Source of the DNA: a virus | IMG/VR virus record: IMGVR_UViG_3300030118_000975 | Span: 1-27,049 of that record | Strand: one strand, 5' to 3' | Length of the DNA: 27,049 bases | Shown here: positions 17,430-20,558 of the stretch, one piece after another | Layout of the letters: the number at the start of each line of letters is the position of its first letter | Position numbering within the stretch: the first letter of the stretch is position 1 | Position numbers and translations under genes: made by a program | The notes under the pieces: generated by a model | What the model saw: the letters and a program-made list of their open reading frames with translations, nothing else | Told to the model about the DNA's origin: nothing | The model's database searches: none

Positions 17430-17470
17430 ATGGCTTGCATAATGTAGGGGTATACCCCATACTTAGAAAA
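17430..17470 (+). promoter_or_regulatory. Perfect GGGGTATACCCC palindrome, candidate operator/promoter
   Basis: GGGGTATACCCC at 17447-17458 is a perfect 12-bp palindrome, 39 bases before the ATG at 17497. TTGCAT (17435-17440), a 17-base spacer and CATACT (17458-17463) could form a promoter, but its boxes are weaker than at the sister sites at 19327 and 20288. TAGAAA at 17464 is an alternative -10. Confidence 0.5.
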
Positions 17471-19326: not shown

Positions 19327-19355
19327 TTGACAGGGGTATACCCCTAATGTATATT
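19327..19355 (+). promoter_or_regulatory. Strong sigma70-like promoter with GGGGTATACCCC in its spacer
   Basis: A perfect -35 TTGACA (19327-19332), a 17-base spacer and -10 TATATT (19350-19355) are present. The spacer begins with the palindrome GGGGTATACCCC (19333-19344). A regulator bound there would sit between the -35 and -10 boxes. The predicted start is about 19362, just at the repeated leader. Confidence 0.82.
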
Positions 19356-19362
19356 TAAGGAG

Positions 19363-19392
19363 TACACAACACCGAGAGGTTTTCCAAATGAC
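19363..19392 (+). repeat. Leader repeat copy 1
   Basis: TACACAACACCGAGAGG followed by TTTTCCAAATGAC. It recurs at 20324-20351 with one substitution and a 2-base gap. It covers nearly the whole predicted 5' UTR plus the ATG; GAGAGG is the likely ribosome binding site, 8 bases before the start codon. Confidence 0.85.
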
Positions 19393-19725: not shown

Positions 19726-19925
19726 CTACATTTGTACCTATTACACGTTATTCCAGATGTAAACGCTATGCAGGGGCTAAAATACAATGCCCTAACTGCA
19801 AAAACATAGGCAGAGTTTATCATCTTTCATGGTCAGCTTTACAATGTCAAAACTGTAAAAATATGATTGATAAGTTTGATTGGTTAATAGAAAAAGGTCA
19901 GTATTCTAAGGAGATAAACAAATGA
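19722..19925 (+). CDS. Zinc-ribbon protein, GTG start
   Basis: This 67-residue protein starts at GTG within GTGA, behind a strong AAGGAGG. It is basic (TRYSRCKRYAGAKIQCPNCK) and has two C-x2-C pairs, CPNC and CQNC, about 20 residues apart, the spacing of a zinc ribbon. The end (MIDKFDWLIEKGQYSKE) is helical. It probably binds nucleic acid or a host protein; the exact role is unknown. It lies between two small unknown genes in an operon with tight overlaps. An antisense open frame over it has no features. Confidence 0.72.
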   Translation: MTTFVPITRYSRCKRYAGAKIQCPNCKNIGRVYHLSWSALQCQNCKNMIDKFDWLIEKGQYSKEINK

Positions 19926-20125
19926 ATAAAAAGAAATTAGAAAAAGAACATTATGCACAGATTTATAAAATGTGTATGCAAAGATTAAAAAAATACTATA
20001 TTGATGCTTTTTATAAAGATGACGCAATAAATGACATTATAAATATTTGTTTATCTCATATGAAATACAAGCATATAGTTAAATTTTATAATGTTTTAGA
20101 AAAAAATGGATTTAATAAATATTAA
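19922..20125 (+). CDS. Small basic helical protein, unknown
   Basis: This 67-residue protein, MNKKKLEKEHYAQIYKMCMQ, is strongly basic and helical throughout (RLKKYYIDAFYKDDAINDII, CLSHMKYKHIVKFYNVLEKN). It could bind nucleic acid or a host factor, but no family is recognised. It overlaps the upstream gene by 4 bases (ATGA) behind AAGGAG. It ends one or two bases before another AAGGAGG at 20124, which has no ATG at a usual distance. Confidence 0.65.
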   Translation: MNKKKLEKEHYAQIYKMCMQRLKKYYIDAFYKDDAINDIINICLSHMKYKHIVKFYNVLEKNGFNKY

Positions 20126-20130
20126 GGAGG
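20124..20130 (+). promoter_or_regulatory. Stranded Shine-Dalgarno AAGGAGG without an ATG
   Basis: A full anti-16S match lies at the end of the preceding gene, but no ATG, GTG or TTG follows at 5-10 bases. The nearest possible start is ATA at 20138, giving nine codons (KIVGKPDS). It may serve a non-standard start, or the downstream RNA structure may control it. Confidence 0.45.
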
Positions 20131-20144
20131 TAAGAAAATAAAAA

Positions 20145-20262
20145 TAGTCGGGAAGCCTGATAGTTAGGTTTGTGAGATACCCTAACTTGAAAGTTATAAA
20201 AAACCTATTGCAATTCATAGGAAAGACAGGGCAAGTGTTGGACTTGATCGATCTCCTGACTA
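20145..20262 (+). ncRNA. Candidate structured RNA, multi-helix, closed by a 9-bp stem
   Basis: TAGTCGGGA (20145-20153) pairs with TCCTGACTA (20254-20262) with one G-U pair. Inside are AGTTAGG/CCTAACT (20162-20168 with 20181-20187, 7 bp), CCTAT/ATAGG (20204-20208 with 20217-20221) and CAAGT/ACTTG (20232-20236 with 20242-20246). CCTG/CAGG (20156-20159 with 20227-20230) can enclose the first two hairpins. It follows a stranded ribosome binding site and lies just upstream of the promoter at 20288. No known riboswitch, ribozyme or tRNA consensus was recognised. An ORF without ATG also spans it, so coding is an alternative. Confidence 0.45.
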
Positions 20263-20287: not shown

Positions 20288-20316
20288 TTTATAGGGGTAT
20301 ACCCTAGTTATATACT
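20288..20316 (+). promoter_or_regulatory. Sigma70-like promoter with GGGGTATACCC in its spacer
   Basis: TTTATA (20288-20293), a 17-base spacer starting with GGGGTATACCCT, and TATACT (20311-20316). The geometry is identical to the promoter at 19327: the palindrome starts at the first spacer base and the -10 has the same distance. The predicted start near 20323 coincides with the second leader repeat. Confidence 0.75.
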
Positions 20317-20323
20317 ATATATA

Positions 20324-20351
20324 TACACAACCGAGAGGCTTTCCAAATGAC
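20324..20351 (+). repeat. Leader repeat copy 2
   Basis: TACACAACCGAGAGG followed by CTTTCCAAATGAC, near-identical to 19363-19392 apart from a 2-base deletion and one T-to-C change. It spans the predicted 5' UTR and start codon, with GAGAGG as the likely ribosome binding site. Confidence 0.85.
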
Positions 20352-20514
20352 AAACACAATCACAATCAGAAACAGACAATACGTAGTTCTAAAAGCAGAA
20401 AACTATACACACAAAGGTAACGACAGAACACAATTTACAGTAAGAAAGCCAAGAGGTACAAAAACATTTTTAGTTGTTAAGTATGAAAATGGTTTATACA
20501 GTTCATTTGCATAA
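20347..20514 (+). CDS. Small basic protein behind the second repeated leader, unknown
   Basis: This 55-residue protein is basic and beta-like: MTNTITIRNRQYVVLKAENY, then RTQFTVRKPRGTKTFLVVKY and ENGLYSSFA. It resembles a small SH3/OB-type strand pattern, but no family can be named. It stands alone between its own promoter (20288) and a strong terminator (20539), so it is a single-gene transcript, probably abundant and early. It shares leader and promoter design with the gene at 19388 but not protein sequence. Confidence 0.75.
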   Translation: MTNTITIRNRQYVVLKAENYTHKGNDRTQFTVRKPRGTKTFLVVKYENGLYSSFA

Positions 20515-20538
20515 ACAAAACATACAACACATACACAG

Positions 20539-20558
20539 CCCCTACTAAGGGGTTTTTT
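20539..20558 (+). terminator. Intrinsic terminator after the 55-residue gene
   Basis: CCCCT (20539-20543), ACTA loop, AGGGG (20548-20552), then six T residues. It closes the plus-strand transcript from 20288 and separates it from the convergent minus-strand genes. In the minus direction there is no T-tract after the stem, so it acts mainly on the plus strand. Confidence 0.85.

Follow-up and report, generated by a model that had tools for sequence, protein, structure and literature searches.

Prochlorococcus and Synechococcus dominate photosynthesis in the ocean and possess few regulatory proteins, and control by RNA therefore carries weight in these organisms. Their Yfr2 RNAs form a multi-copy family. 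Folded elements behind genes are also known, namely (i) integron attC sites, which vary in loop length and lie directly behind each of many unrelated genes; and (ii) REP/BIME repeats, multi-copy structured extragenic elements that follow genes and go together with RAYT transposases. Yfr2 (Cyano-1) has been presented as a conserved sRNA family of Prochlorococcus and Synechococcus (PMC6778093). The L17 downstream element, an example of an orphan 3'-UTR motif, is a structured bacterial RNA found by comparative genomics and lies in a potential 3' UTR, and manA, wcaG and PhotoRC-II are structured RNAs of marine cyanophages, of which the manA RNAs were described in potential 5' UTRs (Weinberg et al., 2010, PMC2864571).

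The element considered here was originally predicted, from a single viral sequence, to be an undescribed structured RNA. Homologues with covarying stems and the lack of any Rfam 15 match support this, and we regard it as almost certain that the element represents a real, undescribed RNA family.

The window and its element

The window, by which we mean the whole 27-kb stretch of DNA analysed, is an IMG/VR virus record with head, tail, exonuclease and Erf genes, as recognised by PHROG matches. Since tblastn places its capsid protein nearest to that of Roseobacter phage CRP-811, with Synechococcus siphoviruses (e.g. S-LBS1) coming next, and its tail fibre J nearest to those of the Prochlorococcus siphoviruses MED4-117 and P-HS2, we infer that the virus is a cyanosiphovirus. 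Relatives of the capsid protein were also found in 31 of 400 sampled Cyanobiaceae genomes (about 40-47% identity in the better matches) and possibly represent prophages or phage contigs.

The predicted element comprises 118 bases on the plus strand (20145-20262), and its postulated 9-bp pairing of TAGTCGGGA with TCCTGACTA is indeed present in the sequence. The same is true for the 7-bp hairpin AGTTAGG/CCTAACT (20162-20168 with 20181-20187), for the two 5-bp hairpins CCTAT/ATAGG and CAAGT/ACTTG, and for the proposed inner helix, which takes the form of a short CCT/RGG. While all nine closing pairs exist in the window, the outer two are poorly conserved and the closing helix of the family comprises 7 bp (GUCGGGN/NCCYGAC). 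The individual parts of the window copy and its neighbours are as follows.

19922..20125, plus strand: upstream co-oriented ORF of 67 aa, no Pfam family; stop 21 nt 5' of GTCGGG, with a further TAA at 20139-20141, 5 nt 5'
20124..20130, plus strand: AAGGAGG, Shine-Dalgarno-like in sequence, with no start codon ahead of the RNA
20145..20262, plus strand: whole RNA element (P1, P1a and hairpins P2, P3 and P4); full-length match to covariance models R1 (137.5 bits, E 7.7e-29, the window sequence having belonged to the R1 training set) and R2 (105 bits)
20145..20153, plus strand: 5' strand of P1, pairing with 20254-20262; conserved core GUCGGGA at 20147-20153
20156..20158, plus strand: 5' strand of P1a, CCU, between conserved AG and GAU; pairs with 20229-20231
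20162..20187, plus strand: hairpin P2, AGTTAGG ... CCTAACT, loop variable; two-sided changes at 7 of 7 pairs across the family
20188..20203, plus strand: J2/3, near-invariant UGAAAGNNAUANAANA, kept in phage and chromosomal copies
20204..20221, plus strand: hairpin P3, CCTA(T) ... (A)TAGG, loop variable; fourth pair changes between A-U, G-C and U-A
20222..20228, plus strand: J3/1a, AAAGACA (family core AARRCA), conserved in the alignment
20229..20231, plus strand: 3' strand of P1a, RGG, from the 82-sequence alignment
20232..20246, plus strand: hairpin P4, C-AAGT ... ACTT-G, length variable; two-sided changes at 4 of 4 pairs; apparently deleted in one relative (L154)
20247..20253, plus strand: J4/1, AUCNAUC, conserved in the alignment
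20254..20262, plus strand: 3' strand of P1, from pairing and covariation; conserved core UCCYGAC at 20254-20260
20288..20316, plus strand: palindromic promoter-like site TTTATA-GGGGTATACCC-TATACT, 3' of the RNA, from a consensus scan; same box at 19327-19355
20347..20514, plus strand: 55-aa ORF 3' of the RNA (ORF list), no Pfam family
20537..20554, plus strand: intrinsic terminator-like hairpin AGCCCC-TACT-AAGGGGTT with T run, from a scan; many relatives have a similar terminator about 5 nt 3' of the RNA

As predicted, the element is flanked by AAGGAGG (20124-20130) and the palindromic promoter box GGGGTATACCC (20294-20304). The stranded appearance of the AAGGAGG is in keeping with an element just behind a gene end and an operon gene order in flux. 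The family is far more widespread than the small-gene region to which the element was originally assigned, and it is also present in host chromosomes. Palindromes of the GGGGTATACCCC type recur at promoter-like sites of the window (17445-17458, 19333-19346 and 20294-20304), and a 30-nt leader, ACACAACMCCGAGAGG...TTTCCAAATGAC, is common to 19363-19392 and 20322-20351. Together, the recurring palindrome and the common leader suggest that one repressor might act on several small operons.

Comparative evidence for a conserved RNA fold

A comparison of folding energy with shuffled sequences, which had been proposed as a check, turned out to be borderline and uninformative. The window element folds at -29.6 kcal/mol (z -1.81), with 10 of 200 dinucleotide shuffles folding as well; its reverse strand behaves alike (z -1.70), and the mean z-scores over 77 homologues are -1.51 for the plus and -1.48 for the minus strand. 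Folding energy alone is hence insufficient to claim a structured RNA, and weak z-scores on both strands are what one could also expect if the pairings were chance small stems in an AT-rich spacer. The question was therefore decided by the comparison of homologues.

In viral contigs, 38 stretches were found by a 24-base exact scan and 89 by a looser one, and within this close group the loops vary in sequence and length while stems and junction are constant. A contig fetched via a neighbouring small protein (L010) holds a diverged copy in which P2 is fully changed and P1 altered. A pattern that excludes the close group yielded 98 further stretches with a GC content of up to 64%, nearly all of which are recognised by the model built from the first group (E 1e-5 to 1e-16). 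In total, 156 distinct elements in 172 distinct contexts (one of them chromosomal) were collected, and since a general pattern lists at least 119 stretches, the family is larger than this count. Two copies deviate in their 3' part: in L154 (6000-6103), P4 is apparently deleted while P1-P3 and the junction are kept, and in L168 (6275-6380), the 5' half and P2/P3 are intact and the 3' half is degenerate and lacks P4, so that the latter copy is probably a decayed element. In genome contigs, a strict pattern gave no match and a less strict one three loci, of which the one in Prochlorococcus MIT0701 (L283) is real; a Clostridium locus (L282) without model match and a Flavipsychrobacter locus (L284) with a weak partial match of 12.5 bits were taken as chance.

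The covariation among homologues that had been asked for as a further check was found in the phage-type as well as in the chromosomal set. In an alignment of 82 sequences, the covariation score is 0.512 compared to 0.170 +/- 0.007 after shuffling, 94.5% of the cells pair, and 438 two-sided changes are observed where 138.7 are expected after shuffling; sliding the partner by 1-3 columns reduces the score to below 0.08. For 105 mostly chromosomal sequences, onto which the structure was transferred from the phages, the score is 0.292 compared to 0.131 +/- 0.005. Within P1 of the 82 sequences, the inner pair changes between A-U, G-C and U-A and a pair near the outside between U-A and C-G, and the U.G pair of P1a is U.G in 64 and U-A in 18 of them.

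Both alignments were fitted to the model, which biases them towards the structure. For this reason it is relevant that a tree-aware test of the R-scape type, written for this analysis (G statistic with APC, 20 replicates, with the parsimony number of changes dropped on a FastTree tree as null), returned significant pairs exclusively inside the structure, namely 6 of 6 in the phage-type and 3 of 3 in the chromosomal alignment. Given this result and the wholesale change of P2, model-fitting bias is an unlikely cause of the covariation. The notion of chance stems is refuted by the 82- and 105-sequence sets together with the tree-aware test, and since covariation appears in independent phage and chromosomal sets and GC-rich homologues keep the fold with different bases, we consider it hardly conceivable.

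Within the helices, G.U combinations on the plus strand exceed A.C combinations by 5-7 to 1 (154 vs 22 and 283 vs 54), which points to RNA of the plus strand as the working molecule. Conservation merely at the protein level, a further possibility raised at the outset, is ruled out: no conserved coding frame was found, as the three plus-strand frames stay open in 37, 1 (frame 1) and 48 of 191 sequences, and 85 of the 191 is the upper bound for any frame.

The resulting consensus reads GUCGGGN-AG-CCU-GAU-[P2]-UGAAAGNNAUANAANA-[P3, CCU...AGG]-AARRCA-RGG-[P4]-AUCNAUC-NCCYGAC, and the window copy displays the family features GUCGGGN/NCCYGAC, CCUGAU-P2-UGAAAG, P3, RGG and P4 together with compensatory changes. 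An alternative hairpin in J2/3 (UAACU-UGAA-AGUUA) can be drawn for the window, but it is lost in GC-rich homologues that keep P2 (L010), and P2 is therefore the conserved pairing. Likewise, a sequestration of the AAGGAGG by the CUCCU of the element was dismissed, as it is absent from GC-rich members.

At curated cut-offs, Rfam 15 gave no match anywhere in the window, in any of 11 phage loci, or to the element in 13 chromosomal loci (where the only matches, at other positions, were tRNAs), and the best sub-threshold matches reached 11-15 bits. By eye, parts of the element resemble motifs of the hammerhead (CUGAUGA), the k-turn and RNase P, for which the Rfam scans returned nothing. No description of the RNA was found in the openly accessible cyanobacterial or cyanophage literature; one that is unpublished or subscription-only may exist.

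Position behind stop codons in viruses and hosts

Of the 172 contexts, 167 have a co-oriented ORF, 25 aa or longer, whose end lies no more than 60 nt upstream of the RNA, and these upstream ORFs fall into 42 clusters. An ORF of 40 aa or more is present in 160 phage contexts, and in 149 of them its stop codon lies within 15 nt (median 6 nt). Random positions chosen in these loci are as close to a stop codon in 38 of 757 cases (5%), a control that leaves the compactness of phage genomes in, so that the tight spacing may partly reflect packed genes. The element thus has a fixed position behind a co-oriented stop codon, as for a 3'-UTR element. Of the originally proposed regulatory RNA or cis element, it is this constant position that is observed, whereas we infer regulation itself.

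The downstream surroundings vary: the RNA may be followed by a terminator at a distance of about 5 nt, by a convergent gene reaching it with its 3' end, by a new promoter, or by another gene. A terminator-like hairpin occurs downstream in 30 of 171 phage contexts, compared to 4 of 158 control windows, and within 120 nt downstream in 61 of 108 chromosomal copies. As a co-oriented ORF starts within 45 nt 3' of the RNA in some GC-rich phages (17 of 171 contexts), the RNA is not always located at the end of a transcript.

Of 23 phage records searched, 21 (about 20-39 kb in size) contain exactly one copy and the other two gave no match. Among cultured viruses, a model search of five isolated cyanosiphophages detected the RNA in MED4-117 (E 5e-10) and P-HS2 (E 3e-10), and not in S-CBS1, S-CBS3 and S-LBS1; MED4-184 was added by blastn; its element is identical to that of P-HS2, and the two records are equal in length. 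A blastn search of cultured phages with the window element and two divergent copies found no homologue. P-HS2 has Prochlorococcus MED4 as host (PMC7852597). In P-HS2 and MED4-117, J2/3 is altered 3' of UGAAAG, and a small ORF ends in a TAG stop codon that takes in the first base of the conserved helix. These abutting ORFs (L391:13647-13800 in P-HS2; L390:16464-16616, minus strand, in MED4-117) resemble by eye the upstream ORF of about 38 uncultured phage contexts; the ORF is annotated in MED4-117 (CPWG_00029) and without annotation in the P-HS2 record.

In this context, one could imagine that the RNA is a trans-acting sRNA, cut from or transcribed at operon 3' ends, that acts on other RNAs or sequesters a protein. 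The single copy per phage fits this notion at least as well as a cis-acting role, and the frequent intrinsic terminator at the end corresponds to the usual anatomy of 3'-derived bacterial sRNAs. The RNA is also carried by phages of Prochlorococcus MED4, whose small-genome host group appears to be mostly without match. However, the hairpin loops are hypervariable in sequence and length, so that none of them offers a conserved seed for antisense pairing, the single strands that are conserved sit in the junction, no promoter is shown directly 5' of the RNA, and many host copies are kept in a unit with a 5' leader and a gene. In our opinion, a trans-acting sRNA is thus possible but rather doubtful.

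Beyond viruses, 60 of the 400 Cyanobiaceae genomes sampled gave covariance-model matches, with a maximum of 9 copies in one genome. A sample of 291 genomes drawn from the entire class gave matches in 11, each of which was already among the Cyanobiaceae matches. The first host to be found, Prochlorococcus MIT0701, has four copies. Of the 108 chromosomal copies, 94 have the end of an ORF of 40 aa or more within 80 nt upstream; the remaining 14 lack such an ORF, and some of their genes may be very short. The upstream host proteins mostly belong to no Pfam family, although 7 of 75 contain RTX calcium-binding repeats and one is a subtilase. A crude rule predicts signal peptides for 23 of the 63 upstream proteins that have 90 aa or more, compared to 54 of 316 ORFs elsewhere in these loci, and RTX-like proteins account for 6 of the 63, compared to none of the 316.

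A second conserved element was noticed before the start codon of many of the host genes that have the RNA behind them, among them RTX and signal-peptide genes, namely a 5' leader that combines GGMGATGGTG with a variable hairpin, in many cases one that contains a GGAGGG-like stretch (e.g. L328:2658-2764; L334:1695-1801, minus strand; L285:543-649), for which Rfam gave no detection. Its exact motif occurs in 48 of 108 chromosomal loci, compared to 3 on the opposite strand, and was not found upstream of phage copies (0 of 171 contexts). Among genomes with the RNA, 8 of 11 have a longer leader pattern, compared to 0 of 9 without a listed match. Since convincing folding of the leader was seen for just one of the four sequences tested, a promoter or DNA element is a possible alternative. 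In many host copies, leader, gene and RNA are kept together as a unit.

The RNA further occurs in same-orientation arrays, often 1-2 kb apart (G254, 2379-2398 kb; G227, 1550-1579 kb; G088, 1590-1609 kb; G269, 850-858 kb), which suggests islands of exchangeable small exported-protein genes. Near two of the MIT0701 copies, genes or remnants of Y1 (IS200-like) transposases were observed (L283:2501-3357; L285, about 2420-2873). Such arrays, e.g. the one at about 2.379-2.398 Mb in G254, the Y1 transposase or remnant near the two MIT0701 copies, and the presence of one element behind each of many unrelated genes could be explained by a DNA-level recombination site comparable to integron attC, or by a REP-like mobile repeat hopping behind genes. 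This is contradicted by the excess of G.U over A.C and the conserved U.G pair, which point to RNA, and by conservation in the junction in addition to the ends. The ends themselves, GUCGGG and CCYGAC, differ from the integron R''/R' cores: the attC core RYYYAAC / GTTRRRY was not found at the outer ends, where the aligned copies have GTCGGG and CCYGAC. Moreover, five genomes with 5-9 RNA copies (G254, G088, G239, G227 and G294) have no Y1_Tnp match, whereas G147 and G072 encode two Y1 transposases each and have no listed RNA match. This co-occurrence across genomes rules out RAYT mobility, and a DNA site or mobile repeat of any kind is disfavoured and appears very unlikely to us.

Possible function and comparison with known systems

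From our point of view, the constant fold, the invariant junction and the stop-codon position favour a cis-acting 3'-UTR module that governs the upstream mRNA, a tentative reading of the sequences to which we would give slightly less than an even chance. The plus strand would be transcribed together with the preceding gene, whose mRNA it would terminate as a tail, or would be part of an operon message with a gene on either side, and the RNA would fold into four arms around the conserved junction. Either a bound protein or the tertiary fold of the RNA and its resistance to decay could then set the lifetime or the end of the upstream message. By established ribosome geometry, a ribosome halted at the stop codon would cover the first bases of P1. 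As the distance between the stop codon and P1 is usually no more than about 15 nt, which places the start of P1 inside the ribosome footprint, the helix would close only after the terminating ribosome has left, and the element would thereby be coupled to upstream translation. In hosts, the element might tag a dispersed set of often exported proteins with a common 5' leader, whereas each phage has one copy, behind a locally chosen small gene.

The multi-copy arrangement of leader, gene and RNA in hosts fits a cis-acting 3'-UTR element, and so does its modular character, since a genome may contain as many as 9 copies, each following a different gene. Among the observations that count against it are that in the window a promoter and another gene precede the terminator, that the window ORF of annotated size ends 21 nt before the helix, and that none of the 171 phage contexts has the 5' leader.

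Alternatively, the invariant junction could bind a small molecule or cut the transcript, i.e. the RNA could be a 3'-UTR aptamer or a self-cleaving ribozyme. With about 100 nt, four helices and many near-invariant joining nucleotides, it is built like known aptamers and nucleolytic ribozymes. Yet no Rfam riboswitch or ribozyme matches, the upstream genes in phages have no evident common theme, and a place behind the gene is unusual for riboswitches, which is why we consider this option unlikely.

One could also go a step further than a cis-acting 3'-UTR element and speculate about a new class, a translation-coupled 3'-UTR junction RNA whose closing helix forms only after the ribosome has left, and which would represent, together with the 5' leader, a two-ended tag on a picocyanobacterial exported-protein regulon that siphoviruses have adopted as a single copy behind exchangeable small genes. 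As a whole, we regard this scenario as improbable.

Overall, an RNA family that is absent from Rfam, common to the chromosomes and viruses of picocyanobacteria, located behind stop codons and linked in hosts to often exported proteins provides a concrete lead on gene control in both. Since the isolated phages MED4-117 and MED4-184/P-HS2 carry the RNA and grow on strain MED4, its function is directly testable.

Compared to the systems described so far, the element shares with integron attC sites the arrangement of one folded element per gene behind many unrelated genes; it lacks, however, the R''/R' cores, and its strand asymmetry and conserved junction indicate a working RNA. It differs from REP/BIME repeats by the missing co-occurrence with Y1 transposases and by a four-arm junction in place of simple palindromes. 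Like the L17 downstream element, it is a structured RNA downstream of a gene, but the former follows one gene family whereas the present element follows dozens of unrelated genes and is common to phages and hosts. With manA, wcaG and PhotoRC-II it has in common that they are structured RNAs of marine cyanophages, although none of them matches it in Rfam and the manA RNAs were described in potential 5' UTRs. Yfr2 is likewise an RNA family of picocyanobacteria, from which the present element is set apart by its lack of an Rfam match and its position directly behind stop codons. Judged by these sequence comparisons, the element represents a new RNA family with a putative function; newness here refers to the family, which has no match in Rfam 15, and the mode of action may well prove to be of a known kind.
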